Assembly (NCBI GenBank): GCA_024401365.1
Contig: JAKSLE010000003.1
Coordinates: forward strand, 62,001-126,000
Length of the DNA: 64,000 bases
Reading direction: 5' to 3'
DNA from: Bacteroidales bacterium
Lineage (GTDB): Bacteria; Bacteroidota; Bacteroidia; Bacteroidales; Marinilabiliaceae
Part shown: piece by piece, positions 33,775 to 53,521 of the stretch
How the letters are laid out: each line of letters starts with the position of its first letter
Numbering within the stretch: the first letter of the stretch is position 1
Notes under the pieces: model-generated
Told to the model about the DNA's origin: nothing
The model's database searches: none
What the model saw: only the letters and a program-made list of their open reading frames with translations
Made by a program: the position numbers and the translations under genes

Positions 33775-36700
33775 ATGTTAGGAGGACTAAAAAATATACT
33801 GACTATGCTGATGTGCTTGTACTGTCTCAGTGCAAGCGCTCAGTCTTTTAGTGAACTTGAGTCCTCTGTATTGAGTAAGGGCCGTTGGGTCAAAATGCAG
33901 GTTAATGAGGAAGGTCTTTATCGCCTTTCTGCGAAAACATTATCCTCTTTGGGCTTCAGCGATATCTCAAAGGTGGCAATATATGGTAATGGAGGGAAGG
34001 AACTTCCATTGAGTAACAGTGCCGAGCGCGTTGTTGATTTGGCGCAGTTGCCAGCCTACCGCACAAAATCAGAATTAGTTTTCTATACAGGGGCTACCCA
34101 AAATTGGACGTATAACTACTCAACTGCCCAATTCCAATGCTCGCAGAACCAGTATGACGATAAGACATACGTTTTTATTACAGATTCTCAAACTCCATCA
34201 GATACCCCTATCAATGCAGAGCCTGTAACAAAAGAGGTTGCTAGCAAAATAACATACAATAGCACTCTGGTACATCACGAGTTGCACAATATAAGCCTTT
34301 TTAAGAGCGGTCGCGATTGGTATGGTGAGACACTGACCAAATCTGCCCCCTCCCTAGAAGTAGATTTGGGTAATTATCAGAGAGTATTATCTCAGGAGAT
34401 AGTCCTTAATATTCGTCTCTGTGCAGCATCTTCTCAGAGGGTTGATTATACTGTTTCGTACAATGACTCGGTATTGATATCAAATAATATTCGCGCGTTG
34501 GGATCCTCTGAACTAGGTGTTAATTCTCAAGCATCAAAAAGATTTAGGCTCCAGAAATCTCCTGCTAGAAATATTGTTTCACTTCAATGTGCTCTGCCTC
34601 AGCTCTCTGACAAGGCTTACCTCGATTATGTCACTGCAGAAATACCTACAGAACTCAAGATGCCGTCCTCGGGGGTGATGTATCTGAATATTGCCGAGGG
34701 TACGAGACGCTATAGAGGTGGTGCCTCAGAGGTGACTATTTCTAATACATCGAGGGAAGATATAGTGTGGTGTATAGATGATGCCACAAAACCGACATTG
34801 GTAACTTCCTCATTTTCAAATAACGAACTGTCGTTTACTCAAGATAATTCAGAGGTCCACAAGTATGTAGTTTTCAATACATCGAAAATTTCATCTTTCC
34901 CGGAGCCGTTGTTTGTATCTGAGGTAGAGAACCAAAATCTCCATGCGACACCTGCTGTAGATTATATTATTGTATATCACCCTATGTTTAAGTCACAGGC
35001 GGAAGAATTGGCTGAGATACATCGCCATCATAGCGGTCTGGCCGTTTATTGTGCAAGTACGGATGATATATATAATGAATTTAATGGCGGACAGAGGAGT
35101 GCGACGGCTATTCGCGACTATGCGCGCTTTGTATATCAGAAATCTAATGGCAAACTTCGTTATCTGCTATTATTCGGCGAGGGTTCTTATGATAATCTGT
35201 CATATGGTTCAGCAAATCCTTATAATCTTGTGCCAACATACCAATCTATACAATCACTTCACGACACTCAGTCGTATGTTACAGATGATTTTTTTGCTTG
35301 GTTGGAAGATGACGAGTTGGTATACGATACACGTGCTAATGTCGATATCGGAGTAGGTCGTTTCCCTATATATGAGGTAGAAGATGCTCAGATAATGGTT
35401 GACAGGGTAAAAAATTATCTGACTAAACCTCAATACGGGGCGTGGATGAACACCGCTGTCATGGCAGCTTGCTCAGGTGACAATAACGAACATGCTATGT
35501 TTGCCAATGAGAACGCTGATCTTATAGCCAAGTATAGTTCTTCAGTAAATACGACTCGTGTAATCGCGGAGGCATATACCTCTGTTCAGTCTACCACTGG
35601 GCGCTCTTACCCTCAGGCTATAAGTGATTTTTACAATGCTATAAATAATCAAGGGGCGTTCTTGGTAAATTATGTGGGGCATGGTGGTCCTTTGGCATTA
35701 CAACTCTATTTTGAAACAGCAAAGATTTCTCGCCTGGCAAATAAGGATAAATTACCTTTTATGATTGCCGCTACATGCGAATTTGCGCCATTTGATAATG
35801 AGCCTAATAATGCTACAAAGCAATTGGTACTTTATCCTTATGGGGGTATGATAGGAGTATTGACTGCAACACGTACTGTTTTTGGAAACAACAACCATAG
35901 CCTTAATGTTGGAATGATTGAGGGGTTGCTTACTCCAGATTCAGAAGGTAACGTTCGTCGTTTGGGAGATGCGGTGCGCTTTGCTAAGTTGAAAACTCCG
36001 TCAATGATCAACTCCTTGAAGTATGTTCTTATAGGAGACCCTGCAGTGACCTTGGTAAATAATGCCGAGTATACTGTTCATACTGACAGTATTTGTGGCG
36101 AACCATATGAGAGTTGTATTACCCCATTGAAGGCGCTGACAGCCAATAAGATAGTGGGTACAGTACGAGATGCCTCGGGAAATATAGTGGAGAATTTCAA
36201 TGGTGAGGTCGAAGTTTCTCTATACGATAAGCAGCATACCCGTTCAACATTGGGTAGCGCTAGCCCCATTTATAGATATACAGAGTGGGGTAATAGGTTG
36301 TTCCATAGTAAGTTTAAAGTGACGGACGGACATTTCGATGCCATAATACAACTTTCCAAGGATATTGATGCTACAGAGGGGTATGGTCGTCTGAGTTATT
36401 TTGCCTGGACAGATACTCGCAAAGCCAAAGGTGCCTCAGACATGGTACTTGTCGGCGGATTCGCAGATGCTTTGCAGGTAGATACTGTTGGGCCAGATTT
36501 GAAAGTCTATATGGATTATCCTCAGTGGCAAGATGGAGGGGTAACAAGTTCTTCCCCCATGCTCTTTGCTGAGATGTCGGATATTTCTGGAATCAATGCA
36601 GCAGGTGTCGGAATAGGACATAATATTACCCTTACAATAGATGATGACCCTAATAGCATATTGTTATTGGATAACTATTATTCTCACTTAGGGGGAGAGG

Positions 36701-37146
36701 GTAATGTCGGACAAGTTAAATATCAACTTCCCGAGATGTCAAGTGGACACCATACCTTATCTTTAAAGGTGTGGGATAACGCAGGTAATTCGTCGGAGAG
36801 ACGTATCTCTATGCAGGTTTCGTCTGTCTCTCAGATAAAATTGAGCGATGTGATGCTTTATCCTTCAACTTTCACGTCGCTTGGAGACCCACTTTATTTA
36901 CGATTCTTCCACAATAACGCAGGTTTTGGCAATACACTCCACATGGCAGTCTACGATCTGTCGGGAAAACTCATGACTTCCACAAAGACTACTTTACCTA
37001 CGGGCTCCTCGGATAGCGGTGTTATATCATTGACCGACCTTATGCCTCGTCTCTCGGGTATGCCTAATGGAGTTTATGTGTTGAATATCAAGCTGATAGG
37101 CTCTAATGGTCGCCGTGGAGAAATTACACGTAAGTTGGCATTCTAA
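33775..37146 (+). CDS. porU: T9SS sortase PorU (C25 peptidase family)
   Basis: PorU removes the C-terminal sorting domain of T9SS cargo and links it to A-LPS. The 1123-residue product has a signal peptide (LSASAQS), a gingipain-like catalytic domain with VNYVGHGGP (His about 636) and IAATCEFAPF (Cys about 668) as the probable catalytic pair, and a C-terminal domain of T9SS type (LSDVMLYPSTF, MAVYDLSGKLM, MPNGVYVLNIKL). These spacings agree with P. gingivalis PorU. It follows the OmpA-type gene by 21 bases and is not next to porV. Confidence 0.92.
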   Translation: MLGGLKNILTMLMCLYCLSASAQSFSELESSVLSKGRWVKMQVNEEGLYRLSAKTLSSLGFSDISKVAIYGNGGKELPLSNSAERVVDLAQLPAYRTKSELVFYTGATQNWTYNYSTAQFQCSQNQYDDKTYVFITDSQTPSDTPINAEPVTKEVASKITYNSTLVHHELHNISLFKSGRDWYGETLTKSAPSLEVDLGNYQRVLSQEIVLNIRLCAASSQRVDYTVSYNDSVLISNNIRALGSSELGVNSQASKRFRLQKSPARNIVSLQCALPQLSDKAYLDYVTAEIPTELKMPSSGVMYLNIAEGTRRYRGGASEVTISNTSREDIVWCIDDATKPTLVTSSFSNNELSFTQDNSEVHKYVVFNTSKISSFPEPLFVSEVENQNLHATPAVDYIIVYHPMFKSQAEELAEIHRHHSGLAVYCASTDDIYNEFNGGQRSATAIRDYARFVYQKSNGKLRYLLLFGEGSYDNLSYGSANPYNLVPTYQSIQSLHDTQSYVTDDFFAWLEDDELVYDTRANVDIGVGRFPIYEVEDAQIMVDRVKNYLTKPQYGAWMNTAVMAACSGDNNEHAMFANENADLIAKYSSSVNTTRVIAEAYTSVQSTTGRSYPQAISDFYNAINNQGAFLVNYVGHGGPLALQLYFETAKISRLANKDKLPFMIAATCEFAPFDNEPNNATKQLVLYPYGGMIGVLTATRTVFGNNNHSLNVGMIEGLLTPDSEGNVRRLGDAVRFAKLKTPSMINSLKYVLIGDPAVTLVNNAEYTVHTDSICGEPYESCITPLKALTANKIVGTVRDASGNIVENFNGEVEVSLYDKQHTRSTLGSASPIYRYTEWGNRLFHSKFKVTDGHFDAIIQLSKDIDATEGYGRLSYFAWTDTRKAKGASDMVLVGGFADALQVDTVGPDLKVYMDYPQWQDGGVTSSSPMLFAEMSDISGINAAGVGIGHNITLTIDDDPNSILLLDNYYSHLGGEGNVGQVKYQLPEMSSGHHTLSLKVWDNAGNSSERRISMQVSSVSQIKLSDVMLYPSTFTSLGDPLYLRFFHNNAGFGNTLHMAVYDLSGKLMTSTKTTLPTGSSDSGVISLTDLMPRLSGMPNGVYVLNIKLIGSNGRRGEITRKLAF

Positions 37147-39764: not shown

Positions 39765-40865
39765 ATGCAATTATTTCCAGCTCTAGAGAAGGTTTATACC
39801 GAAGAACAACTTTCGGCACGAGATGCTCAGCGCCTTGCTGAGTTTATAGCATGGGGTCCTGTAGTATTCCAGACCTCACGTATTATGATGAAATATGGCA
39901 TCCTGGATGCTATCCGTGATTCAAAAGAGGGATTGACACGACAGGAATTATGTAAGGTGTCAGGTCTTTCGGATTATGCAGTAAAGTGCCTTACAGAGGC
40001 TTCGTTGTGTATAGGAATAATTCTCGTCGATAAGGATACCGACCGATTCACTATTTCTAAAACGGGTTGGTTCTTGTTGACTGATCAGGCTACACGTGCA
40101 AATATTGATTTCAACCATGACGTCAACTACGAGGGGTGGTTCCACTTAGAGGAGTCATTGGTAAATGGTAAGCCTGAAGGTTTGAAGCATTTTGGCTCAT
40201 GGTCAACTATATACGAGGGATTGTCTAGCCTCCCTCCTCAAGTCCAGAAGAGCTGGTTCGGCTTCGACCATTTTTACTCTGACAATTCTTTCGACGAGGC
40301 TCTCAAAATAGTTTTCGATGTCTATAAGCCAAAATCGTTGTACGACGTAGGCGGAAATACTGGTCGTTGGGCTCTCCGTTGCGTGGATTACAACCCTGAT
40401 GTGGTGGTTACAATACTCGACCTCCCTCAGCAGATAGGTATGATGCAGGAGCAGACCAAGGGTAAGCCAGGGGCAGAGCGTATCAAGGGGTACGGAATCA
40501 ATCTCCTTGATGAAACTCAGCATTTCCCTCAGGGAGAGAATGTAGATGCTATCTGGATGAGCCAGTTCCTCGATTGTTTCAGCATGCCTGAGATAGTCAG
40601 TATCTTGAAACGAGCAAAAGAGTCTATGACCGATAATACACGTTTGTATATCATGGAGACTCTTTGGGATCGTCAGCGCTTCGAGCCTGCTGCATTCTGC
40701 CTTACTATGACAAGTTTGTATTTTACAGCTTTGGCTAATGGTAATAGCAAGATGTATAATACCGAGGACATGGAGAAGTGTATCAATGACGCAGGATTAG
40801 TCGTTGAGAATATCCATGATTATCTTGGTCAGGGACATAGCATAATGGTTTGTCGCAAGAAGTAA
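39765..40865 (+). CDS. SAM-dependent O-methyltransferase (COMT-like)
   Basis: A 366-residue class I methyltransferase. The N-terminal third is a winged-helix/dimerisation domain (VVFQTSRIMMKYGILDAI, LTRQELCKVSGLSDYAVKC) and the SAM site appears as SLYDVGGNTGRWAL near residue 200, followed by VVVTILDLPQQ and WMSQFLDCFS. Plant-type COMT proteins share this order. First gene of the cluster, directly after the promoter. It probably methylates a hydroxyl on an aryl head group, by analogy with aryl polyene clusters. Confidence 0.85.
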   Translation: MQLFPALEKVYTEEQLSARDAQRLAEFIAWGPVVFQTSRIMMKYGILDAIRDSKEGLTRQELCKVSGLSDYAVKCLTEASLCIGIILVDKDTDRFTISKTGWFLLTDQATRANIDFNHDVNYEGWFHLEESLVNGKPEGLKHFGSWSTIYEGLSSLPPQVQKSWFGFDHFYSDNSFDEALKIVFDVYKPKSLYDVGGNTGRWALRCVDYNPDVVVTILDLPQQIGMMQEQTKGKPGAERIKGYGINLLDETQHFPQGENVDAIWMSQFLDCFSMPEIVSILKRAKESMTDNTRLYIMETLWDRQRFEPAAFCLTMTSLYFTALANGNSKMYNTEDMEKCINDAGLVVENIHDYLGQGHSIMVCRKK

Positions 40866-40870
40866 AGCTA

Positions 40871-41773
40871 GTGGCTGAGGCGAATACTAATACAAGTTGG
40901 GCAGGTGATACCTTTGGTACCACATGGATGCACGAAACATTGATAAAGATGCTTCGCTGGATCGATGTGCGCATCATTTATGCTTTTGTCGCAGTATTCG
41001 TTGTGCCTGTTACTCTTATAGTAAGTCCTGGCGCTAGAGTTATATATCATTATTTCCGCCGAGTATGGAAATTTTCTGTTCTTAAGTCGGTGGGCGCTAC
41101 ATATCGCAATCACTATATTTTCAGCCAGGTTATTATAGACCGTTTTGCTATATGGTCGGGCAAGAAATATAATATTTCAGTGGAGGGCGAGGAGGTATTC
41201 CAACGGTTAGATTCTCAGCCAGAGGGTTTTGTCCAGTTAAGCGCTCATGTGGGTAATTACGAAGTGGCAGGATATCACCTTAGTTCTAAACTTAAGCGCT
41301 TCAATGCACTGGTCTTCTCTGGGGAAAAGGCTACTGTAATGGAGAATCGCAATCGTATGTTTGCCGACCGCAATATGCGTATGATCTCTAGCTGTGTCGA
41401 TATGTCACATATCTTCGAATTGGATAATGCCCTCACCAGTGGAGAGATTGTTAGTATGCCGGCGGACCGTATGTTGGGCTCTACAAAGAGTGTGACAAAG
41501 GAGTTCCTGGGCCTGCCCGCTAAATTCCCATTGGGCCCCTTCAATATTGCTACAATGCGTGGATATAATGTCATCGCTGTCAATGTTGTTAAGGTGAAGT
41601 GGAATGCATATGCCATACGAGTAGTGGATCTCCCATACGATAAGGAGGCTTCGCGACGTGAACAGGTAGCTCAGTTGTCCGAGGCTTATGTCCGCGAATT
41701 GGAGCGTGTAGTGCGCAAGTATCCTTACCAATGGTTTAATTTTCACGAGTTCTGGGAGGAGCCTAAAGCATGA
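40871..41773 (+). CDS. Lysophospholipid-type acyltransferase (LpxL/ApeD-like)
   Basis: A 300-residue membrane-associated acyltransferase of the LpxL-like superfamily. A hydrophobic N-terminus (IIYAFVAVFVVPVTLI) is followed by the catalytic-like LSAHVGNYEVAGYH (the H-x4-D/E box as HVGNYE) and IVSMPADRMLG. The start is uncertain: GTG 40871 gives a protein beginning with AEANTNTSWAG, while a TTG at 40850 overlaps the methyltransferase. I prefer GTG. The gene overlaps the dehydratase by four bases. In APE clusters a homologous enzyme helps build the lipid-linked product. Confidence 0.83.
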   Translation: MAEANTNTSWAGDTFGTTWMHETLIKMLRWIDVRIIYAFVAVFVVPVTLIVSPGARVIYHYFRRVWKFSVLKSVGATYRNHYIFSQVIIDRFAIWSGKKYNISVEGEEVFQRLDSQPEGFVQLSAHVGNYEVAGYHLSSKLKRFNALVFSGEKATVMENRNRMFADRNMRMISSCVDMSHIFELDNALTSGEIVSMPADRMLGSTKSVTKEFLGLPAKFPLGPFNIATMRGYNVIAVNVVKVKWNAYAIRVVDLPYDKEASRREQVAQLSEAYVRELERVVRKYPYQWFNFHEFWEEPKA

Positions 41774-42228
41774 GCATAGATATGTTGCACCCTTCAGATG
41801 CTTTCCTGAGAACTTTGGATATGCACGATATTCTGCCTCAGCGCGAGCCATTTATCTTGGTCGATAAACTGACGAGATTCGATGATACCCATACTTGTAC
41901 AGAGTCGGTTGTCTCTGAGGCTAATATTTTCGTGAAGGATGGGGTATATGCTTCTGAGGGAATGATGGAGGTAGTGGCACAGACTTGTGCTGCACGTATA
42001 GGCTACATAAGCAAGTATGTCCTCCATAAGGGCGTAAGTATTGGCTATATAGGTGCAATACGTGCCCTGCAGGTGTCAGCACTGCCTTGCGTAGGTGATA
42101 CCTTGGAGTGCTCAATTGAAATATTGGATCAGGTATTTAATATGTCAAGAGCCAAGGCTCAGATATCTTGCAAGGGACAGATTCTTATCTCTATGGAGAT
42201 AAAAATAGTTGAAAAAGGAGAGGATTGA
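41770..42228 (+). CDS. Hotdog-fold 3-hydroxyacyl-ACP dehydratase-like protein
   Basis: A 152-residue FabZ-like hotdog protein. It has LPQREPFILVDKL near residue 22 (FabZ: LPHRxPFLLVD) and EVVAQTCAARIGY near residue 65, keeping the active-site Glu region. The usual GHFPG motif, whose His is catalytic in FabZ, is replaced by FVKDGVYASEG. I recall other polyene-cluster dehydratases with the same replacement. It likely dehydrates ACP-bound 3-hydroxy intermediates to give the conjugated chain, although the catalytic residues are not certain. Confidence 0.8.
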   Translation: MSIDMLHPSDAFLRTLDMHDILPQREPFILVDKLTRFDDTHTCTESVVSEANIFVKDGVYASEGMMEVVAQTCAARIGYISKYVLHKGVSIGYIGAIRALQVSALPCVGDTLECSIEILDQVFNMSRAKAQISCKGQILISMEIKIVEKGED

Positions 42229-42235
42229 TAAATTC

Positions 42236-43948
42236 ATGGTATCAGTTATAGCACATAATATAGTGTCGCCTTTGGGCATGACATCTGCAGAGAATTATTC
42301 GGCTGTCAAAGCGGGTAATTCGGCTTTGTCATTGCATGAGGGAAAGTGGGATTTGCCCGAATCTTTCTGTGCTTCATTATTTACAGATGCCCAATGGCAT
42401 GATATACAGCAGGATGGCTATACCCATTTTGAGTCGTTGGTAATAAAATCGCTCTCTCAGACATTGCCTTCTTGTAATGTCGATCTTTCGTCTGAGCGTA
42501 CTATCTTTATTCTCAGCTCCACAAAAGCTAATGTCGAATTGCTGGCCGATCCTCATTTTTTCTCTTCGCCCGAAGGTGAATTGCCAGGCGTGGCAGCAAA
42601 GCATATAGCAGATCATTTTGGCATAAAAACTTCTCCTATAGTAGTCTGCAACGCTTGCATCTCAGGGGTGGCAGCTCTCATTTTGGCTAAACGACTTTTG
42701 GAGACGGGACAATATGATGATGCAATAGTCTGTGGCGCAGATGTTCAGAGCGCTTTCATCGTCTCTGGCTTCCAGTCGTTCAAGGCGTTGTCTCCGGATA
42801 ACTGCCGACCATTTGATGCCGAGCGTGTAGGGTTGAATCTAGGTGAGGCGGCTGCTACAATAGTGCTGTCTAATAGGGATAGTATTCAGTCGTCTCCATG
42901 GCACCTCGTATCGGGTGGCGTGCGTAACGATGCTAATCATATAAGCGGACCTTCACGTACGGGTGAGGGTAGCTATAGAGCTTTGCTGACACTGGACGCT
43001 CCCGAATCTGAGTTGGCGTTCATAAATGCTCACGGAACAGCTACATTGTACAATGACGAGATGGAGTCGATAGCTCTCCACCGCGCAGGTTATCACTCTG
43101 TATGTATCAACGCTCTCAAGGGTTACTACGGTCACACCATGGGTGCAGCGGGTATCCTGGAGTCTATAATTTCTATGTGCGCCGTGGATGATAATACCAT
43201 CCTCGCTACCCGTGGCTTGAAAAATAAGGGCGTCTCTGGCGATATAACTTTGTCAAACGCTAATAATCAGACAGATAGAGAGTCGTTCGTAAAGTTGCTC
43301 TCAGGGTTCGGAGGCTGCAATGGAGCTCTTTGGATTAGCCGCAATAAGGATCATCAAAATAAAAAAATTGCGAGCAACAACTACACTCTGACTAATCACG
43401 TAGTAATCACACCGACTTCTGTAACTATCAATGGAGAACCTGTCGTGTGCGAACAGACTGGTAAGGCGTTGCTCACAGAATTGTACAAGAAGTATGTGTC
43501 TGATTATCCTAAATTCTACAAAATGGATGTGATGACACGCTTGGGATTTATCGCCTCAGAACTTCTGCTTCAGACCGAGGGTAGTGAGCGTTTCGTCCCT
43601 TGCGAGGATAGGGCAGTTGTCTTGTTCAATCGTACTTCTTCTCTTATCGCAGATAAACTTCACCAGGAGTCTATCAACGATAAACATAACTTTTTCCCAA
43701 GTCCATCAGTATTTGTATATACTTTGCCAAATATTATAACTGGCGAAATAGCTATACGTAATAAGTATTATGGCGAGACATCGTTCTATATATTGGAACG
43801 TAATGATAAGAAATTGATCGATGAGGTGCTTAATGCTTCTTTCTTGGATTCTCATACCCAAAGCATCATCGCAGGATGGGTAGATTGTGAGTCGGAGGAT
43901 GTTTTCAGCGCCGAAATGTATATAGTGGATAATAAAACAATAAAATAA
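42236..43948 (+). CDS. Beta-ketoacyl synthase with fused C-terminal KS-associated domain
   Basis: About 570 residues. The ketosynthase domain (residues 1-370) has the active-site Cys in CNACISGVAA (Cys 141) and histidines in NAHGTATLYNDE (His 266) and GYYGHTMGAAG (His 300), so the triad is complete. After a linker (QNKKIASNN) comes a second domain of about 185 residues with YPKFYKMDVMTRLGF and FFPSPSVFVYTLPNIITGE, which I know as a separate short gene in flexirubin/polyene clusters. The linker DNA contains the recurrent GCGAGCAAC word. The ATG at 42236 is preferred over the TTG at 42209. It follows the dehydratase by seven bases. Confidence 0.85.
   Translation: MVSVIAHNIVSPLGMTSAENYSAVKAGNSALSLHEGKWDLPESFCASLFTDAQWHDIQQDGYTHFESLVIKSLSQTLPSCNVDLSSERTIFILSSTKANVELLADPHFFSSPEGELPGVAAKHIADHFGIKTSPIVVCNACISGVAALILAKRLLETGQYDDAIVCGADVQSAFIVSGFQSFKALSPDNCRPFDAERVGLNLGEAAATIVLSNRDSIQSSPWHLVSGGVRNDANHISGPSRTGEGSYRALLTLDAPESELAFINAHGTATLYNDEMESIALHRAGYHSVCINALKGYYGHTMGAAGILESIISMCAVDDNTILATRGLKNKGVSGDITLSNANNQTDRESFVKLLSGFGGCNGALWISRNKDHQNKKIASNNYTLTNHVVITPTSVTINGEPVVCEQTGKALLTELYKKYVSDYPKFYKMDVMTRLGFIASELLLQTEGSERFVPCEDRAVVLFNRTSSLIADKLHQESINDKHNFFPSPSVFVYTLPNIITGEIAIRNKYYGETSFYILERNDKKLIDEVLNASFLDSHTQSIIAGWVDCESEDVFSAEMYIVDNKTIK
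43361..43378 (+). repeat. Recurrent AAAAATTGCGAGCAAC word, at domain linker
   Basis: Copy of the word, encoding KKIASN at the junction between the ketosynthase and its appended domain. Confidence 0.75.
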
Positions 43949-43954
43949 TATAGT

Positions 43955-44212
43955 ATGGTAAACGAAGAATTGATTAACGAATTGAAGGGTCATATTATCA
44001 ACGCCCTCCATCTTGAGGATATTACTCCAGACGACATCGAGAACGATGCTCCATTGTTCGGCGATGGCCTCGGCCTTGATTCTATAGATGCTCTCGAACT
44101 TATCGTGATGCTCGAAAAGAAGTACGGTATCCGCATAGCTAATCCAGCCGAGGGTAAGTCTATCTTCAAAAGCGTAAATTCTATCGCAGAGTACGTAGAC
44201 TCTCACAAGTAA
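43955..44212 (+). CDS. Acyl carrier protein
   Basis: An 85-residue ACP. The phosphopantetheine attachment serine is Ser43 in GLGLDSIDALEL, in a typical helix-2 context, with conserved VMLEKKYGIRI following. It sits between the two ketosynthases, five bases after the first, and should carry the growing polyene chain. Only one ACP is visible here, whereas many aryl polyene clusters have two. Confidence 0.92.
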   Translation: MVNEELINELKGHIINALHLEDITPDDIENDAPLFGDGLGLDSIDALELIVMLEKKYGIRIANPAEGKSIFKSVNSIAEYVDSHK

Positions 44213-44222
44213 TTTATTGTCT

Positions 44223-45989
44223 ATGAGTATGTCAATTGTCATAACGGGCGAAGGCGTTGTGTCGGCTATCGGTCTGAACAAGAAGGAGACTTTGTCTTCT
44301 TTGCTAAAGCGTCAGACAGGTATCTCTTATCCTTCAGTCTTGCCTACTAACCATAATGATTTGCCAGTAGGTGAGGTGAAACTGACCAACGACGAGATGA
44401 AATCGCGTCTTGGCGTGAAGGATGAGTATATCAGCCGTACCTCTCTCCTGGGTATGATGGCAATTGACGAGGCACTTGAAGATGCTCATCTGAATGCCAA
44501 TTCTTACGCCAATTCTCGCGTGATGCTTATCTCGGGTACTACCGTTGGCGGTATGGATACCACAGAGCATTATTTCGCCGAGATGTTGTCCGAGAATAAG
44601 CATCTTAAGTGTATCGAGAGCCATGATTGTGGTAATACTACCCAAATGATGGCTTCTCGTTATCCGTTTGTTTCGGAGTACACTACTATTTCTACTGCTT
44701 GTTCTTCGGCTGCTAATGCTCTTATTTTGGGTGCCAACCTTATTAAGTCGGGACAGGCAGATATAGTTATAGCGGGTGGTACCGAGGCATTGTCGGTTTT
44801 CCACCTTAATGGGTTCAACTCATTGATGATTCTCGACCACCAGCAGTGTCGACCTTTCGATAATACTCGTGCGGGCTTGAATCTTGGTGAGGGAGCAGGA
44901 TATGTAGTATTGGAGTCTGAGGAACATGCACGCAACCGTAAGGCTGATATTCATGCATACCTTACAGGGTATGGTAATGCTTGCGATGCATACCATCAGA
45001 CAGCCTCTAGCGCCGATGGCGAAGGTGCATTCTTGGCAATGAATAGCGCATTGGCTATGGCTGGACTTTCGCCCGAGGATGTCCAATATATCAATGCTCA
45101 CGGTACAGGTACTCCTAATAATGACGAGAGCGAGGGCGTCGCTATCCGTCGTGTGTTCGGCGGCAACTTGCCTGCTGTGTCAAGTACCAAATCATTTACA
45201 GGACATACTACTAGCGCCTCGGGTGGTATCGAGGCTGTATTCTGTATATTGGCACTCCAACATCAGTTCCTTCCTGCTAATCTGGGATGGTCGGAGCAGA
45301 TGCCCGAGGGAATTACGCCTACCACGGGGGCAGACCATTATGAGGTCAGAAACGTAATGTGTAATTCGTTCGGATTTGGTGGAAATGATTCGTCGTTTAT
45401 CCTTTCAGTACGACCATCAGAGGGTATAGCTCTCAAATTTGGAGATAAAAAGATAAAGGTACTCAGCCGTGTAGAGATTGATGAGAATTCAGATCTCTCG
45501 CGTATCAAGGAGTATGTCAAACCTATGGAGGTGCGCCGTATGGGTACTCTCTTGAGGTCTACACTCTTGGCTTCTTTCGATGCCCTCAAGGAGGCAGGCG
45601 TCGAATGCCCAGATGCCATCATTACTGGTACCATCCTGGGTTGTTTGGATAATAGCGAGGTTTTGTTGCGCGACATCATTTCTTCTGATGAGGCGTCATC
45701 TAGTCCTACTCTCTTTATGCAGAGTACCCACAATACTATTGGCAGTTCTATCGCTATCAAGCTGAATTGCCATGGATATAATACTACATATACACAGGGG
45801 GATGCCTCTTTGGAGTGGGCAATGCGTGATGCGGCACTATTGTTGCATAGTAATCAAGCAAAGACAGTATTGGTTGGTTGCCATGACGAGACAACTGAGT
45901 GGTATCGCGAGGTAATGAATAAGCTTGGTCATAAGGAGCAACTCCATCCAATACATTCAGTAGCATTAGTTTTGACGTGTGATGAATAG
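44223..45989 (+). CDS. Beta-ketoacyl synthase fused to chain-length-factor-like domain
   Basis: About 588 residues. The FabF-like ketosynthase (1-400) has Cys 160 in STACSSAANA, His 293 in NAHGTGTPNNDE and His 328 in KSFTGHTTSASGG, so it should be active. The C-terminal 185 residues match the ketoacyl-synt_2/chain-length-factor family (PF13723): VKPMEVRRMGTLLRSTLL, IITGTILGCLDNSEVLL, FMQSTHNTIGSSIAIKLN. In other clusters this second domain is a separate protein. The LolA gene overlaps the end by eight bases. ATG 44223 is used; the TTG at 44217 is also possible. Confidence 0.88.
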   Translation: MSMSIVITGEGVVSAIGLNKKETLSSLLKRQTGISYPSVLPTNHNDLPVGEVKLTNDEMKSRLGVKDEYISRTSLLGMMAIDEALEDAHLNANSYANSRVMLISGTTVGGMDTTEHYFAEMLSENKHLKCIESHDCGNTTQMMASRYPFVSEYTTISTACSSAANALILGANLIKSGQADIVIAGGTEALSVFHLNGFNSLMILDHQQCRPFDNTRAGLNLGEGAGYVVLESEEHARNRKADIHAYLTGYGNACDAYHQTASSADGEGAFLAMNSALAMAGLSPEDVQYINAHGTGTPNNDESEGVAIRRVFGGNLPAVSSTKSFTGHTTSASGGIEAVFCILALQHQFLPANLGWSEQMPEGITPTTGADHYEVRNVMCNSFGFGGNDSSFILSVRPSEGIALKFGDKKIKVLSRVEIDENSDLSRIKEYVKPMEVRRMGTLLRSTLLASFDALKEAGVECPDAIITGTILGCLDNSEVLLRDIISSDEASSSPTLFMQSTHNTIGSSIAIKLNCHGYNTTYTQGDASLEWAMRDAALLLHSNQAKTVLVGCHDETTEWYREVMNKLGHKEQLHPIHSVALVLTCDE

Positions 45990-46608
45990 GGTATTGGTAA
46001 TATTATCAGCATTTTTTGTTTTGTTGTCAAACCTGACAGCACAGAGCCTTAGTGAGACGCAGATTCGTGCTAAGATTCAGGATGTTGTAGCTGGAATAAA
46101 GACAATACAGTGCGATTTTGTACAGACAAAAAAAGTGAAGATGTTGGCAGATAAGGCCATTTCTAAGGGGCGAATGTGCTCTGAGCAGAACACTAAATTG
46201 CGTTGGGAGTACACTGAACCTCAGAAACATATCTTCATTTTCAATGAGAATAGGGTCCTGCTGGATAATGGGACAACAAAGGAGGTCATAGATATCCAAC
46301 AAAGCAAGGTTTTCAAAGAGGTCGCTAAATTGATGAAAGATGATGCTTTGCTCAAGGGCCTAAATGGCGATAAGGATTTTGAGATAAAGTTCTCTTCTGA
46401 TGGGAACGCACTTGTAGCTGATATGGTGCCTGTCAAACGACAGTTGAAGCATTTGTTCACTGCTATTTCTCTGCGAGTAAATGCTGATCAGAAAATTATC
46501 TCTTCGGTAGAGATAAAGGGACAGAATGGAGAGACGACTCTTATAGAGTTCAATAATGTCTTGGTAAACAAGAGTATAGATAACGCTCAATTCTCAGTAA
46601 AAGATTAA
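45982..46608 (+). CDS. LolA-like outer-membrane lipid carrier
   Basis: A 208-residue periplasmic protein with a signal peptide (LLSNLTAQ). The LolA pattern is seen in IKTIQCDFVQTKKVKMLADK, KGRMCSEQNTKLRWEYTEP and DIQQSKVFKEVAKLM. In aryl polyene clusters a LolA homologue carries the lipid-linked product across the periplasm. It overlaps the ketosynthase by eight bases and is followed by a glycosyltransferase-acyltransferase. Confidence 0.88.
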   Translation: MNRVLVILSAFFVLLSNLTAQSLSETQIRAKIQDVVAGIKTIQCDFVQTKKVKMLADKAISKGRMCSEQNTKLRWEYTEPQKHIFIFNENRVLLDNGTTKEVIDIQQSKVFKEVAKLMKDDALLKGLNGDKDFEIKFSSDGNALVADMVPVKRQLKHLFTAISLRVNADQKIISSVEIKGQNGETTLIEFNNVLVNKSIDNAQFSVKD

Positions 46609-46610
46609 CT

Positions 46611-48119
46611 ATGACCGATATATCAATAGAAGAATCCCGACAGACGCTGCACGATCGAGGAATATGCGTTATTGTTCCGACGTACAATAACGTGCAGACT
46701 ATCAGAGAGGTGGTTGAACGTTCTCTGGTATATTGTATGGATGTTATCGTGGTCAGCGATGGGTGTACTGATGGTACAACAGAGATTCTTAGGTCTATTG
46801 ATGGTATTACCTTGGTAGAGTATCCTACCAATATGGGGAAGGGTTATGCGCTCAAGCAAGGATTCCAGAAGGCCTTGTCTATGGGATTTGCTTATGCCAT
46901 AACACTAGATGCCGATGGTCAGCATTATCCCGAGAATATCCCAGATTTTCTCAAGGCAAACCAAAAATATCCCGGTACTTTGATAGTGGGACAGCGTAAT
47001 TTGGAGGGAGTGGTCCGTTCAAAGGGTAGTAGTTTCGCTAATAAGTTCAGTAATTTCTGGTTCTTTGTTCAAACGGGGTGTAATCTTAAAGATACCCAGA
47101 CAGGATATCGTCTGTATCCGCTGAAAAAACTTCATGGTTTATCCTTTTTGACATCTAGGTATGAGGCAGAACTGGAGTTGATGGTATTTGCCTCATGGAA
47201 TGGGGTAAAGTTGAAATCTATACCTATTGATGTCTTTTATCCTAAACCTGAAGATAGGGTCTCGCACTTCCGCCCGGTAGCAGATTTTGTGCGTATCTCG
47301 ATATTGAATACTATTTTGTGTGTTTTGGCTATTGTTTATGGGTGGCCAGCAAACATAATACGTTTTTTGTTACGCTTGTTGAGGACGGTCTATTCATTGG
47401 CGTTCTTTATCATTACAGCTGTTTTTATATTCACACCTTTGTTGTGGGTATATCTTAAGATTGGTAAGGTAACAGAGAAAAAGAGTGAGAATCTGCACAA
47501 GATGATATATCATTACTCTCGTTTTGTGATGATTCATCATGGTATTCCAGGCACATCGTTTAAGAGCGTTTTAGAAAATAAAGAAGAAGATTTCAATAAA
47601 CCATCTGTAATAGTATGTAACCATCAGTCGCATCTTGACTTGATGTGTATATTAGTTTTGCATCCCAAGATAGTGTTCCTTACCAATGACTGGGTGTGGA
47701 ACAGTCCATTCTATGGTTTTATTATCCGAAATGCCGAGTATCTGCCTGTAAAAGACGGCATAGAAGCTATAATGCCACAACTTAAATCGCTGGTTGACAG
47801 AGGATATAGTATAGCAGTTTTCCCTGAGGGTACCCGATCTCAGGATTGTAGTATAGGTAAGTTCCATCAGGGGGCATTCTATATTGCAGAGAAATTTGGC
47901 TTGGATATTCTGCCTATGGTTATCTATGGGCCAGGTAAGGTGTTGCCAAAGCATACATATTGCTTGCGCAAGTCACCTATGCAAATTTCGGTATATAACA
48001 GATTGACACAAAGTGCATTGCAACAGATAGGGGAGATAAAAACCCAAACTAAGAATATGAGGCATCGTTTTATTGAGTATTATAGCTCCATGTGCAACAA
48101 GATAGAGCAAGATGTCTAA
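46611..48119 (+). CDS. Glycosyltransferase family 2 fused to acyltransferase
   Basis: A 502-residue bifunctional membrane protein. The GT2 part (1-240) has VIVPTYNNVQTI, VVVSDGCTDGTTE and the DxD-type LDADGQHYPENI. Two membrane segments (about residues 225-285) link it to a PlsC-like acyltransferase with NHQSHLDLM (HX4D) at about residue 340 and FPEGTRSQD at about 405. E. coli-type APE clusters have the same fusion (ApeJ). It starts two bases after lolA. Confidence 0.88.
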   Translation: MTDISIEESRQTLHDRGICVIVPTYNNVQTIREVVERSLVYCMDVIVVSDGCTDGTTEILRSIDGITLVEYPTNMGKGYALKQGFQKALSMGFAYAITLDADGQHYPENIPDFLKANQKYPGTLIVGQRNLEGVVRSKGSSFANKFSNFWFFVQTGCNLKDTQTGYRLYPLKKLHGLSFLTSRYEAELELMVFASWNGVKLKSIPIDVFYPKPEDRVSHFRPVADFVRISILNTILCVLAIVYGWPANIIRFLLRLLRTVYSLAFFIITAVFIFTPLLWVYLKIGKVTEKKSENLHKMIYHYSRFVMIHHGIPGTSFKSVLENKEEDFNKPSVIVCNHQSHLDLMCILVLHPKIVFLTNDWVWNSPFYGFIIRNAEYLPVKDGIEAIMPQLKSLVDRGYSIAVFPEGTRSQDCSIGKFHQGAFYIAEKFGLDILPMVIYGPGKVLPKHTYCLRKSPMQISVYNRLTQSALQQIGEIKTQTKNMRHRFIEYYSSMCNKIEQDV

Positions 48120-48136
48120 AGTCATAATTATAGGAT

Positions 48137-49438
48137 ATGAACACAAACAATGATATAGAGTTCCTCTCGGCTGCCGAGATTAAGAAGTACCAAGAGGGGC
48201 TTCTCCATAAGGCGTTGGCATATTTGTCGGCTAATTCAAAATATTATCAGCGTCTTTTTAAAGCGCATAATATTGATATTGACGACATTAAGACAATTGA
48301 GGATTTGACCAAGCTTCCTTTTACTGAGAAAAAAGACCTTCAATTGTACAATGATGATTTTCTCTGTTGTCCAAAGGAGAAGATTATTGATTATATCACG
48401 ACATCGGGAACATTGGGAGATCCTGTTACTTTCGGGTGTACGGATGCTGACTTAGAGCGATTGGCATATAATGAGATGAAATCGTTTAAGTGTGCGGGTT
48501 TAGGTTCGGGCAATATTGTGCAACTTATGACTACCATGGACAAGCGCTTTATGGCTGGCTTGGCATATTTTCTTGGCATACGTAAGTTGGGCGCAGGTAT
48601 TATTCGTGTTGGAAATGGTATTCCCGAACTGCAGTGGGATACTATACAAAGAATTAAGCCAGACACTATTATGTGTGTGCCATCATTTATTTTGCGCCTC
48701 ATACAATATGCTGAGGAGCACAATATTGACTATAAGAATAGCAGTATCAAGCGCATTATAGGTATTGGAGAGGGGTTGAGAGAGCAAGATTTCTCGCTCA
48801 ATCTTTTAGGTAAGCGTATTAAAGAGAAGTGGGATGTGGAGTTGTTTGCCACCTATTCATCGACAGAGATGGGGGCCACTTTCTCGGAATGCCAATATGG
48901 TCAGGGAGGGCATGTTCATCCGGAGTTGATTATAGTAGAGATAATTGGAGAAGACAATCAGCCGGTACCAGATGGGGAGCCAGGAGAGGTGGTAGTCACC
49001 ACGCTAGGTGTTGAAGGAATGCCGTTGTTGCGTTTCCGTACAGGAGATATTGCTGCTAAGAAAGTTGAGAAGTGTAGGTGTGGACGCGAGTCGTACCGTT
49101 TGACCCCACTTGTTGGTCGCAAAAACAATATGATTAAGTACAAGGGTACGACACTCTATCCGCCAGCGATATACGATGTACTTGACAATGTAGAGTATGT
49201 AGAAAATTACTTTATAGAGGTGCGCGACAGTATGGCAGGAACCGATGAGGTAGTCGTTCGCATAGGGTTGAAGCCAGAAGTTGATTGGAATGTAGAAAAG
49301 GACCTCAAGGACCGATTCCGTTCGCGTCTTCGCGTGGCACCTATTGTTGAAGTATTGTCTGCCGCTGAAATACAGAAGGTTATATTCCCAGCCAAGAGTC
49401 GAAAGCCTATAAAGTTTATTGATAACCGCAAAAAATAA
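48137..49438 (+). CDS. AMP-forming ligase (phenylacetate-CoA ligase-like)
   Basis: A 433-residue adenylate-forming enzyme of the PaaK-like group. Visible: the phosphate-binding TTSGTLGDPVTFG near residue 90, YSSTEMGATFSECQ near residue 240, FRTGDIAAK near 295 and GRKNNMIKYKGTTLYPPAI. In aryl polyene clusters an enzyme of this type activates the aryl starter acid. The substrate is unknown. It lies 17 bases after the GT2-acyltransferase. Confidence 0.88.
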   Translation: MNTNNDIEFLSAAEIKKYQEGLLHKALAYLSANSKYYQRLFKAHNIDIDDIKTIEDLTKLPFTEKKDLQLYNDDFLCCPKEKIIDYITTSGTLGDPVTFGCTDADLERLAYNEMKSFKCAGLGSGNIVQLMTTMDKRFMAGLAYFLGIRKLGAGIIRVGNGIPELQWDTIQRIKPDTIMCVPSFILRLIQYAEEHNIDYKNSSIKRIIGIGEGLREQDFSLNLLGKRIKEKWDVELFATYSSTEMGATFSECQYGQGGHVHPELIIVEIIGEDNQPVPDGEPGEVVVTTLGVEGMPLLRFRTGDIAAKKVEKCRCGRESYRLTPLVGRKNNMIKYKGTTLYPPAIYDVLDNVEYVENYFIEVRDSMAGTDEVVVRIGLKPEVDWNVEKDLKDRFRSRLRVAPIVEVLSAAEIQKVIFPAKSRKPIKFIDNRKK

Positions 49439-49442
49439 GGAT

Positions 49443-50573
49443 ATGGAATACCCCTCGATTTTTGATGACATTCGTCCCTATGACGAGCACGAAGTAGTGC
49501 AGGCGATGCAAGATATAGCGATGGACAAGACATTCCCTGTCCTATCGAAGTTTGTGTTCCCAAATCTATCCCTAGAGGAGGTGAGGGCGTTGTTCTCCAG
49601 TCTCAAGAATATAGACGATTTCCAGAGCAAGATTATGTATCAGGCCAATAAGCAGATTATGGCTCGATCGATTACGGAAATGACAGTAGGGGGGATGGAG
49701 AAGCTAGATCCTAGCAAGAGATACCTATTTGTGTCGAACCATAGAGATATAATGCTTGATGCCAGTCTGTTGCAGAATTCGCTTAAGGACTATGGGCATG
49801 AAACAGCACAGATTACGTTTGGCGCTAATCTCATGAGGGGGGATATGGTAGTCAATATTGGTAAGTCGAACAAGATGTTCAGGGTTGAGCGAGGCGGTAA
49901 TATGAAAGCCTTTTATGAGAGCTCCAAGCATTTGTCGGACTACATAAGATATGTCATAACAGAGCGAAACGAATCGGTATGGATTGCCCAGCGAAACGGA
50001 AGGACGAAGAATGGGGACGACCGTACAGACCAAGGCATCATTAAGATGTTCTGTATGAGCAAGAAAGAAGATAAGATAACGGCATTGACCGATTTGAATA
50101 TCGTACCTGTTTCAGTTTCATACGAGTGGGAGCCATGTGATATACTCAAGGCTATGGAGCTTTACGTTTCGACTATAAAGACATACGTAAAGACTCAGAA
50201 TGAGGACCTTCACAGTATTCTTACAGGTATTCTACAAACCAAGGGCAGGGTACATTTTGAGATATGTGACCCTATTAGAGAAGAAGAGTTGCTGGTATTC
50301 AAAGACTTGACCAACGGAGATTATCACAAGCAGGTAGCAAAGTTGCTTGATTCGCGAATCCATAATGCCTACCGTCTGTACCCTAATAATTATATAGCAT
50401 ACGACAAGCGCTTTGGCGGGTCGAAGTACAGGGACCATTATACCGACGTAGAGAAAGAACTCTTCGAGCAGCATGTGAATGTGTTGGATACCTATCCCGA
50501 ATACGATAAGGAGCAACTAGAAGAGATACTGCTAGACATTTATTCCAACCCAGTTGTAAATAAATTCAACTGA
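49443..50573 (+). CDS. PlsB/PlsC-type acyltransferase
   Basis: A 376-residue cytosolic-looking acyltransferase with VSNHRDIMLDASL (HX4D) near residue 100 and WIAQRNGRTKNGDDRTDQG near residue 180, features I associate with Bacteroidetes glycerol-3-phosphate/1-acyl transferases. No membrane helix is evident. It is the third acyltransferase domain in the cluster and overlaps the exporter start by one base. The ATG at 49443 fits better than the one 24 bases upstream, which overlaps the ligase. Confidence 0.82.
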   Translation: MEYPSIFDDIRPYDEHEVVQAMQDIAMDKTFPVLSKFVFPNLSLEEVRALFSSLKNIDDFQSKIMYQANKQIMARSITEMTVGGMEKLDPSKRYLFVSNHRDIMLDASLLQNSLKDYGHETAQITFGANLMRGDMVVNIGKSNKMFRVERGGNMKAFYESSKHLSDYIRYVITERNESVWIAQRNGRTKNGDDRTDQGIIKMFCMSKKEDKITALTDLNIVPVSVSYEWEPCDILKAMELYVSTIKTYVKTQNEDLHSILTGILQTKGRVHFEICDPIREEELLVFKDLTNGDYHKQVAKLLDSRIHNAYRLYPNNYIAYDKRFGGSKYRDHYTDVEKELFEQHVNVLDTYPEYDKEQLEEILLDIYSNPVVNKFN

Positions 50574-53521
50574 TGAATAAAATAATAGTCGGCATATACG
50601 ATTATATCCGTACGCACAAGTCGGTGGCGATACTCACTTGTGTAGCAGTTTCGTTGCTATTGGTATATAAAGTAGTTGGGATAGACTATAAAGAAGATAT
50701 CTCCGATTTTCTTCCTCTCAGTGAAAAGCAACAAAATGCGCTAAAGGTATACCAGGACATTTCGGGAGCCGACAAATTTTTTGTGGTCTTCAAGAATGCT
50801 GATGGTCGGGAGGCCGATGCCGACCGTCTAGTAAATGCGATAAACACATTTGTAGATGAGGTAGAAGAGCGAGACACTGCGCATATCATAACCGATATGA
50901 TGGCCACGGTAGATTTCAACCAGATCAATGAAGTCTCGGAATTTGTATATCACAACATACCATACTTCCTAGGTGATGCAGATTATGAGAGGATAGACAG
51001 CCTGCTATCAAGAGCCGACTATGTGCGAGAGCAACTTAAGGAAGGCAAGCAAGCTCTGTTGTTTCCTATGAGCAGTATGGTAGAAGTCAATCTAGCCAGA
51101 GACCCTCTAGGAATATTCTCCGCTACGCTCAAGCCATTGCAGAACAGGATCTCAAATGTAGACTATGAGCTCTATGAGGACTGTATTTTTACACCCGACA
51201 TGGAGAGAGCTATAGTGATGATAACATCGCCATACGGGTCGAGTGAGACAGACAAGAATCCGCAATTTATCCAATTTCTGCAAGATATAGCTAGGCAGAC
51301 TATGGCAGAAGAAGAGGGGGTAGATATTCAGATTATAGGAGGACCGGTAATAGCTCAAGGCAACTCGGAGCAGATAAAATTTGACAGTATTATATCCGTA
51401 CTTATATCTGTAGTCCTTATACTACTGCTCTTGTTCTATTCATTCAGGAACCTGAAGAATATACTCCTTATAGTACTATCCATTTCGTGGGGAATGCTAT
51501 TTGCTGTAGGTGCCTTATCCTTTGTCAACGACAATCTATCTATAATAGTAATAGGTATTGCGTCGGTAATAATAGGTATAGCAGTCAATTATCCGTTGCA
51601 CCTCATTGCCCATGTTAAGCATACGACAGATGTCCGTTCGGCGTTGAAAGAGATAGTCATGCCACTACTTATTGGCAATGTTACGACGGTAGGTGCGTTT
51701 CTGTCGCTAGTGCCATTGCAATCTATTGCCCTAAGAGATTTAGGACTATTCAGCTCCTTCCTTCTGGTAGGTACGATACTATTTACATTGACCATTCTGC
51801 CTCATCTCATATATAAGGGAAGTATAAGAGAGCATACGGGTTGCTCGCAATTTTTTGATAAACTCAGCAATGTAACGTTAGAAAATAAAACCTGGTTGGT
51901 ATGGGGTATTATGGGGTTGATGGCAGTTTTTGGCTATTACAGTTTACAGACCTCGTTTGACTCAAATCTATCCAACATCAACTATATATCAGAAGAGCAA
52001 AAAAGTGAGTTGGAGCGATTTGAGAAGATGCTCACCAACGCCTCGGCAGAAGAGACGCTATATCTTGTAAATTCCGGGGAGGATATAGACGAGGTATTAG
52101 ACAGCACATTAGTCAACCATGGTTTTGTGCAAAAACTCTTAGAAGAAGGTGCGATAAAAGACTATATATCATGCAGTCAGTTTATCACCTCCAAGAAAGA
52201 GCAAGAGAGCAGGCTAGAGAAATGGAGGATATTTGTGGGCAAATATGCTGACCGATTAAAAGAAGAAATAAGAACTGAAGGAGAGAAGATAGGATTCACG
52301 GCCGATGCATTTGAAGAATTTGAAGAGATACTTACGGCAGAATATGAGCCGCAGTCGCTATCCCATTTTCAGCCATTGATTTCCACGGTATTTTCTAACT
52401 GCCTCAGTATAGATAACGCCAGTGGGTCATATTCGGTAGTAGACATACTCAAGAGTGAGCCACAGAAGTTGCAAGAAAACCGATCGCTTCTGCAAGACAA
52501 TACCACGGCATACTGTTTTGATGTGAAGACCATGAACTCCTCGATAGCTGAAAGTCTGTCGGACAACTTCAACTATATAGGCTTTATGTGTGGTTGTATA
52601 GTATTTTTCTTCCTCTGGTTCTCGTTTGGCAGGATAGAGTTGGCGATACTCTCCTTTGTGCCTATGGCTATAAGTTGGCTGTGGATACTCGGTATCATGG
52701 CGATATTCGGCATACAATTCAACATAGTAAACGTCATACTTGCCACATTTATATTCGGTCAAGGAGACGATTATACTATTTTCATGACAGAAGGAGCCAG
52801 TTACGAATACACATACAGGAAGAAGATGTTGGCGTCGTACAAGCAATCCATCATACTATCGGCGTTGATAATGTTTATAGGCATTGGGTCGCTCATTGTA
52901 GCCAAGCACCCTGCGCTTCATTCGTTAGCAGAAGTAACCATAGTGGGAATGTTCTCTGTAGTTCTTATGGCCTATATGTTTCCTCCGTTGATTTTCAAGT
53001 ATCTGGTGTCGCGCAAGGGAGAATACAGATTACGTCCCTTATCCATATCCAATATCTGGAGCAAAGACAGGGAAGTGCTGCCGACAAGTAAGAATATAAC
53101 AGACTATTTGCCATTGTTGAAGGACAGGTATCGATATAAAGGGATTGATATAGAGAAAGTTGTTAAGAACAACCTCAAGGCATACGATAATTATTCGCAA
53201 TGGGCAGACTGTTCGGGAGTAAGAAACGTGGCAGTAATAAATGGCGGGTATGGAGAGATGGCCATACTACTTGCCCTAATTAACAGAGACATCAAGGTAG
53301 AAAATATAGAGGCAGACGAAGAAAAGAGCACGGTTGCCAAGTATAGTGGAGAGTTTTTGAAAAATTTTGAGGCCAGAGGAATAGGGATAGAAGAGTTAGA
53401 GATAGCCCAAGATACGAGGTACTTTATTATAGAACCCACAGAAGAGCAAACAGAGCAAATCAATAAAATTTGCAAAAACGCTTGCATTGGAGATAATAAT
53501 GTTGTAATTTTGCGCCGTTAA
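50573..53521 (+). CDS. MMPL-family exporter with C-terminal methyltransferase-like domain
   Basis: A 982-residue RND/MMPL transporter: signal anchor near residue 20, a periplasmic loop with DYKEDISDFLPLSEKQQ, six TM helices (about 245-425), a second loop, and six more helices (about 660-840). Then comes an unusual soluble tail (about 845-982) with VRNVAVINGGYGEMAILLAL and VENIEADEEKSTVAKYSG, which resembles a Rossmann SAM-binding fold. It should export the finished product to the outer membrane. Last gene of the cluster. The inverted recurrent word is within it at 51840-51856. Confidence 0.87.
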   Translation: MNKIIVGIYDYIRTHKSVAILTCVAVSLLLVYKVVGIDYKEDISDFLPLSEKQQNALKVYQDISGADKFFVVFKNADGREADADRLVNAINTFVDEVEERDTAHIITDMMATVDFNQINEVSEFVYHNIPYFLGDADYERIDSLLSRADYVREQLKEGKQALLFPMSSMVEVNLARDPLGIFSATLKPLQNRISNVDYELYEDCIFTPDMERAIVMITSPYGSSETDKNPQFIQFLQDIARQTMAEEEGVDIQIIGGPVIAQGNSEQIKFDSIISVLISVVLILLLLFYSFRNLKNILLIVLSISWGMLFAVGALSFVNDNLSIIVIGIASVIIGIAVNYPLHLIAHVKHTTDVRSALKEIVMPLLIGNVTTVGAFLSLVPLQSIALRDLGLFSSFLLVGTILFTLTILPHLIYKGSIREHTGCSQFFDKLSNVTLENKTWLVWGIMGLMAVFGYYSLQTSFDSNLSNINYISEEQKSELERFEKMLTNASAEETLYLVNSGEDIDEVLDSTLVNHGFVQKLLEEGAIKDYISCSQFITSKKEQESRLEKWRIFVGKYADRLKEEIRTEGEKIGFTADAFEEFEEILTAEYEPQSLSHFQPLISTVFSNCLSIDNASGSYSVVDILKSEPQKLQENRSLLQDNTTAYCFDVKTMNSSIAESLSDNFNYIGFMCGCIVFFFLWFSFGRIELAILSFVPMAISWLWILGIMAIFGIQFNIVNVILATFIFGQGDDYTIFMTEGASYEYTYRKKMLASYKQSIILSALIMFIGIGSLIVAKHPALHSLAEVTIVGMFSVVLMAYMFPPLIFKYLVSRKGEYRLRPLSISNIWSKDREVLPTSKNITDYLPLLKDRYRYKGIDIEKVVKNNLKAYDNYSQWADCSGVRNVAVINGGYGEMAILLALINRDIKVENIEADEEKSTVAKYSGEFLKNFEARGIGIEELEIAQDTRYFIIEPTEEQTEQINKICKNACIGDNNVVILRR
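51840..51856 (-). repeat. Recurrent GCGAGCAAC word, inverted, inside exporter gene
   Basis: GTTGCTCGCAATTTTTT, reverse complement of the word at 23105-23121; it encodes GCSQFF. Confidence 0.75.
53482..53512 (+). promoter_or_regulatory. Promoter of rplU-rpmA inside the exporter 3' end
   Basis: TTG (53482-53484), 20 bases, TAATTTTG (53505-53512), then GCG. It lies within the last codons of the exporter, about 90 bases before rplU. Confidence 0.55.

Follow-up and report, generated by a model that had tools for sequence, protein, structure and literature searches.

A probable split flexirubin/aryl-polyene-type pathway in a Bacteroidales genome, with an eleven-gene main block and an unlinked FlxB ketoreductase

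Can a gene block that carries most of an aryl polyene pathway, and no ketoreductase, still be expected to make a polyene? This question is raised by eleven genes at positions 39765-53521 of a 64,000-nucleotide stretch of DNA (the window; contig JAKSLE010000003.1, here C23:62001-126000) from a metagenome-assembled genome of a gut Bacteroidales bacterium (GCA_024401365.1; 3.05 Mb in 76 contigs, 87% complete). The initial annotation described a compact aryl-polyene-like cluster with fused ketosynthases (KSs), and took the lack of a ketoreductase to mean that the product might differ, or that housekeeping enzymes such as FabG supplied the missing functions. Our analysis suggests instead that the block is probably the main part of a split flexirubin/aryl-polyene-type type II polyketide synthase pathway served by an unlinked FlxB. 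Because this ketoreductase is encoded elsewhere on the same contig, we regard the system as a known pathway in split form and not as a new one.

The block consists of eleven intact open reading frames (ORFs), closely packed on one strand. Consecutive gaps are -16, -4, -20, +6, +4, -11, +2, +17, -20 and -1 bp, in keeping with the very small gaps and overlaps first described. ORF starts were set mechanically, and several are TTG or GTG. Family scans agree with the families originally named (acyltransferases, hotdog enzyme, two KSs, acyl carrier protein (ACP), LolA carrier, ligase and MMPL exporter) and with the assignment of the content to the aryl polyene/flexirubin type, as the FlxJ, LolA2 and FlxY genes pass flexirubin NCBIfam cut-offs. 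Two labels need adjustment: the methyltransferase belongs above the FlxJ-family cut-off, but nothing supports its being called an O-methyltransferase, and the three acyltransferase domains stand as one LpxL-like and two PlsC-type, but a GT2 glycosyltransferase domain had been overlooked. The eleven genes, which occur in identical order in three sister species (G065, G066 and G067), are as follows.

39765-40865, + strand: FlxJ-family methyltransferase (NF053543, 592.5 bits, cut-off 560), predicted to act in aryl-ring methylation
40850-41773, + strand: LpxL/HtrB-like acyltransferase (PF03279, 51.3 bits, cut-off 22.3)
41770-42228, + strand: FabZ-like hotdog dehydratase (NF000582, 30.7 bits, under its cut-off of 113)
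42209-43948, + strand: KS1 ketosynthase, Cys-His-His, with a C-terminal tail of ~195 aa (PF00109, PF02801)
43955-44212, + strand: ACP (NF006617, 84.2 bits, cut-off 70)
44217-45989, + strand: KS2 ketosynthase fused to a chain-length-factor-like half domain (PF00109, PF02801, PF13723)
45979-46608, + strand: LolA2-type periplasmic carrier (NF053544, 164.1 bits, cut-off 125)
46611-48119, + strand: GT2 glycosyltransferase-PlsC-type acyltransferase fusion, ApeJ-like architecture (PF00535, PF01553)
48137-49438, + strand: FlxY-family aryl-CoA ligase (AMP ligase; NF053551, 710.3 bits, cut-off 520)
49419-50573, + strand: second PlsC-type acyltransferase (PF01553, 26.8 bits, cut-off 23)
50573-53521, + strand: MMPL/RND-type exporter (PF03176, 80 bits, cut-off 20.5; TIGR03480 and TIGR00921 matches both below cut-off)

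Where, then, is the ketoreductase? Seven proteins of the source genome match PF13561, and all seven could be typed by family models. One of them, at C23:49377-50105 on the minus strand, is an FlxB ketoreductase (393.8 bits on the FlxB model, cut-off 340) that lies 51.7 kb before the block and 11.9 kb before the start of the window. Thus, the reported absence of a ketoreductase is true of the window but not of the contig, and the expectation that missing functions would be found elsewhere in the genome was borne out. The ketoreductase that belongs to an aryl polyene/flexirubin-type biosynthetic gene cluster (BGC) would be supplied here by FlxB, outside the block. It adjoins a polysaccharide deacetylase gene (identified by family matches) and adk and hpt (named by eye). 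In the sister G065 (locus L059) the order is hpt-adk-FlxB, then 327 bp, the whole block and rplU, and in G066 and G067 FlxB is also found at hpt-adk, on contigs different from the block's. A ketoreductase near the block in relatives had been named at the outset as grounds for abandoning the idea of a cluster without one, and G065 has exactly this arrangement.

The distribution of FlxB follows that of the block's ligase. Across the family (71 genomes), 28 genomes have an FlxY above its cut-off and 28 an FlxB above its own: both are present in 27 and neither in 42, the two discordant genomes being G069 (FlxY alone) and G057 (FlxB alone). This co-occurrence gives a Fisher p of 2.6e-17, and outside the genus (13/14 vs 0/42) a p of 7e-12, although both values overstate independence because the 71 genomes are related. 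These data bear on a rival possibility, that the pathway has no dedicated ketoreductase and that housekeeping FabG (and FabZ) performs the reduction. A FabG copy is indeed encoded (L042; TIGR01830 334.9 bits, cut-off 297.75; 230.7 bits on the FlxB model), and where the locus of a relative extends at least 9 kb upstream of KS1 (50 loci), FlxB is present in 24 and absent from the fetched stretch in 26. Yet a separate FlxB above cut-off is found in 15/15 genomes of the genus and tracks FlxY across the family, and it differs from its G065 counterpart by a dN (nonsynonymous divergence) of only 0.030 at a dS (synonymous divergence) of 1.1; dN is 0.017 for the FlxC-like KS discussed below and 0.022 for adk. 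Reduction by FabG alone is therefore unlikely, and the view that FabG must act as a substitute finds no support in a genome with its own FlxB. The same 26 loci also argue against the earlier suggestion that a pathway whose ketoreductase is not linked is thereby different. When the seven source short-chain dehydrogenase/reductase proteins were compared with these 26 loci, matches appeared only in L094 and L129, the best with a FabI-like query.

All eleven genes are under purifying selection: compared with G065, dN is 0.08-0.50 and dS 1.6-2.9 or saturated, with dN far under dS in every gene. The LolA protein shares 39.6% identity with its G065 counterpart, against 67-89% for the other ten, a difference that could reflect either gene replacement or fast divergence of LolA. 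Both KS1 and KS2 retain Cys-His-His (the KS1 Cys in 83/83 rows), and the attachment Ser of the ACP is present in 76/76 rows of the alignment. The block could still be a decaying remnant that makes no product, since it has fewer genes than many relatives (of the 50 loci above, 41 contain an FlxC-like KS, 40 a second ACP, 27 a thioesterase and 14 an ammonia-lyase) and no ammonia-lyase was found for it. However, eleven open frames, retained active-site residues in KS1, KS2 and the ACP, and the selection data make decay very unlikely, and we rejected this reading because of the selection and the gene order conserved in three sisters.

Could the block instead follow a non-reducing route, in which cyclisation of the chain yields an aromatic polyketide and no polyene? 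No ketoreductase is adjacent, and the dehydratase, whose activity is unproven, is altered. The usual FabZ His, which is catalytic in FabZ, is replaced by Gln in 58/61 aligned rows (His in 2, a gap in 1), and the Glu is kept in 61/61; matches to FabZ families are weak, and the best PDB match is 6qsr_B (E 0.003). But a dehydratase-family gene is nevertheless present in the block, and FlxB lies within the locus in 24/50 relatives with the same KS1 type. We rejected this route, which now seems extremely improbable, because FlxB is encoded elsewhere in the genome.

The split may extend to a further KS. Two KS proteins are encoded outside the block in the source genome, and one of them (C67:57538-58764, on another contig) shares 60% identity with the FlxC-like KS of Persicobacter. 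At E 1e-100 it has matches in 28/71 family genomes, the same 28 that carry FlxB, including 15/15 of the genus. Of the 13 FlxB-positive genomes from other genera, 9 have their best match no more than 0.2 kb from FlxB; in G021, G023 and G025 it is 3.7-15 kb away, and in G006 it is on another contig. This distribution speaks against a plain housekeeping FabB, a reading that we considered; in its favour, four genomes (G006, G059, G062 and G064) carry a second copy (53-56% identity) at or near FlxB and the C67-type copy elsewhere. Because of these second copies, the FlxC role of the C67 protein is uncertain, and it may instead be a paralogue that serves some other purpose.

What does the FlxB locus suggest about the history of the pathway? 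In G060, of the same genus, the order is hpt-adk-FlxB-KS2-CLF-deacetylase (CLF, chain-length factor), followed by an aroK, tsaB, ispA, atpD run (named by eye). The source genome has hpt-adk-FlxB-deacetylase and then the same run (L185:2570-5876 against L054:6374-8105). The FlxB proteins of the two genomes are 96.3% identical (77.5% in DNA); for KS2, the KS part shows 42% identity between them. In a tree of 80 KS2 rows, the source and its three sisters fall inside a Prevotellaceae/Bacteroidales group, with the native copies of G060 and G062 outside; the very long G060 branch makes this tree supporting evidence only. Thus, an older KS2-CLF pair was likely lost at hpt-adk, and a fused-KS block of Prevotella-like type appears to serve in its place. 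A search for a KS2/CLF remnant in the gap after the source FlxB gave a best match of E 25. In G064, another species of the genus, flexirubin genes of LolA-, glycosyltransferase- and MMPL-like type (L050, 3297-19901) stand near the site that the block occupies in the source genome, ~9 kb away from the ribosomal L21 gene.

Several observations weigh against the split-pathway reading. That FlxB serves the eleven-gene block is our inference, and FlxB may predate the block, because the G060 FlxB also stands at hpt-adk beside a KS2 so different in sequence. To this are added the relatedness of the genomes counted, the FabG that the genome also encodes, the second KS copies in four genomes and the Gln of the dehydratase. 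No thioesterase or second ACP lies within the block, to which the search for these two was confined. PF00221, the ammonia-lyase family, has no match in the source genome (87% complete), which extends genome-wide the earlier remark that no ammonia-lyase lies in or next to the block. Even so, we hold the split pathway to be the probable one.

What would prime the chain? The FlxY of Chitinophaga pinensis is described, in the portion of PMC3992019 available, as a 4-coumarate-CoA ligase that favours 4-coumarate 121-fold over cinnamate. True flexirubin clusters combine FlxY with the FlxA ammonia-lyase; the source genome has the former, far above its cut-off, and not the latter. In addition, its sole PF08541 protein is of FabH type, so that no DarB candidate was found (DarA was not searched). 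With neither an ammonia-lyase nor a DarB candidate in this incomplete genome, the product is probably not a true flexirubin, that is, a polyene esterified with a dialkylresorcinol. It is possible, though we advance this only tentatively, that the organism has no ammonia-lyase of its own and that an outside hydroxycinnamic acid, such as plant 4-coumarate in a herbivore gut, primes a flexirubin-type pathway that is a chimera of a genus-native FlxB and a Prevotella-like KS block. This idea follows from the retention of FlxY while PF00221 has no match in 8/15 genus genomes, the source included; among these are G059 (97% complete, FlxY present) and G057 (98%, FlxY not found). The source region matching the site of the ammonia-lyase gene in the sister G065 lies on an unbroken contig and contains no ammonia-lyase. 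The idea is weakened by G065 itself, which has the same block and a PF00221 gene. If the starter is indeed plant-derived, then Bacteroidales of herbivore guts would rely on the diet for making their pigment.

The fused KSs were a further feature of the initial annotation, and the description fits KS2, which combines PF00109 and PF02801 with a PF13723 half domain. With the ACP, KS2 provides the KS-CLF pair and carrier protein of an aryl polyene/flexirubin-type BGC. For KS1 the case is less clear: its tail has no Pfam match and resembles the KS2 tail weakly (profile comparison with hhalign, E 6e-4, probability just 28%), and the tail profile does not align to KS domains. Fused KSs are common among the relatives found, because ORFs of at least 540 aa account for 73/83 KS1 rows and 69/78 KS2 rows. 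In plasmids of Aureispira (L057) and Persicobacter (L058), KS and tail/CLF are separate neighbouring genes.

Taken together, the block most likely encodes the production and export of a yellow membrane pigment that belongs to the aryl polyenes and is related to flexirubin; the catalytic steps, the product and its anchor are predictions from sequence. FlxY would activate a hydroxycinnamic-type aryl acid, which the fused KS2 and KS1, and probably also the unlinked FlxC-like KS, would elongate on the ACP with malonyl units. Each beta-keto group would be reduced by the unlinked FlxB and then dehydrated by the hotdog enzyme, yielding a conjugated polyene whose aryl ring FlxJ may methylate. A lipid or glycolipid anchor could be attached to the polyene by the LpxL-like, PlsC-like and GT2-PlsC proteins for transport to the outer membrane by the MMPL exporter and LolA. 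More generally, a gene absent from one window should not be read as a missing pathway step, as a ketoreductase ~52 kb away illustrates.

The last ~100 residues of the exporter, outside its Pfam match, look by eye like a degenerate Rossmann/methyltransferase segment. The block's neighbours are genes for a C25 peptidase, an ECF sigma factor, a DUF6108 protein, ribosomal L21 and L27 and seryl-tRNA synthetase. A PorZ-type propeller protein (window 28283-30661) and the C25 peptidase (33775-37146) suggest type IX secretion components near the block.

This type of cluster is widespread. A KS1 scan of a species-genome collection returned 490 relatives, and the best 80, whose labels all read Bacteroidales or the broader Bacteroidota, were kept for locus counts, with each gene named for its best BLASTP match among 31 reference proteins (E no higher than 1e-5). 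Many of these 80 loci end at the flank or a contig edge; they contain FlxB in 28 cases, an FlxC-like KS in 50, a second ACP in 55, a thioesterase in 42 and FlxY in just 8, three of which are the sisters. An ammonia-lyase occurs in 8 of the 24 loci in which FlxB is preceded by at least 1.7 kb of sequence. A survey of 8,160 rumen genomes is reported to have yielded 2,800 clusters of the aryl polyene type (PMC8241843), and a flexirubin-like cluster is reported in Bacteroides xylanisolvens (PMC12940132).

Among the closest known systems are fused-KS1 clusters of other Bacteroidales, for example L070, L095 (Hoylesella marshii) and L099 (Prevotella lacticifex), in which, outside the sisters, KS1 is 44-55% identical over the best segment; L070 and L095 keep the shared genes in the same relative order, and L099 has no dehydratase labelled. 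The plasmids of Aureispira anguillae (L057) and Persicobacter psychrovividus (L058) carry homologues of most block genes and FlxB, with a polysaccharide deacetylase beside the KS-CLF genes; unlike the source, they keep KS and tail/CLF separate, with an ammonia-lyase, a second ACP and a thioesterase inside. The C. pinensis flexirubin cluster, as far as the same portion of PMC3992019 describes it, runs from flxA to flxY with darAB and includes a polysaccharide deacetylase. It shares with our system FlxJ, LolA, FlxY, KSs, a dehydratase-family gene, acyltransferase, glycosyltransferase and exporter, and also FlxB and the deacetylase, which the source genome encodes elsewhere; it differs from the eleven-gene main block with unlinked FlxB, fused KS pairs and no ammonia-lyase or DarB candidate found. 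The aryl polyene clusters of uropathogenic E. coli and of Acinetobacter/Xenorhabdus, in the excerpts of PMC8253772 and PMC8358021, have an ApeQ ketoreductase and two ACPs inside the cluster, a 4-hydroxybenzoate starter via ApeH, and KS and CLF as separate proteins, unlike the block described here. They share with it KS-CLF, ACP, a dehydratase-family gene and methyltransferase, an ApeJ-like glycosyltransferase-acyltransferase (ApeJ itself being given as a glycosyltransferase/acyltransferase in the excerpt of PMC8253772), a second acyltransferase and LolA-like plus RND-type transport. With its acyltransferases, LolA and MMPL/RND exporter, the block has the envelope-attachment genes of the aryl polyene type.

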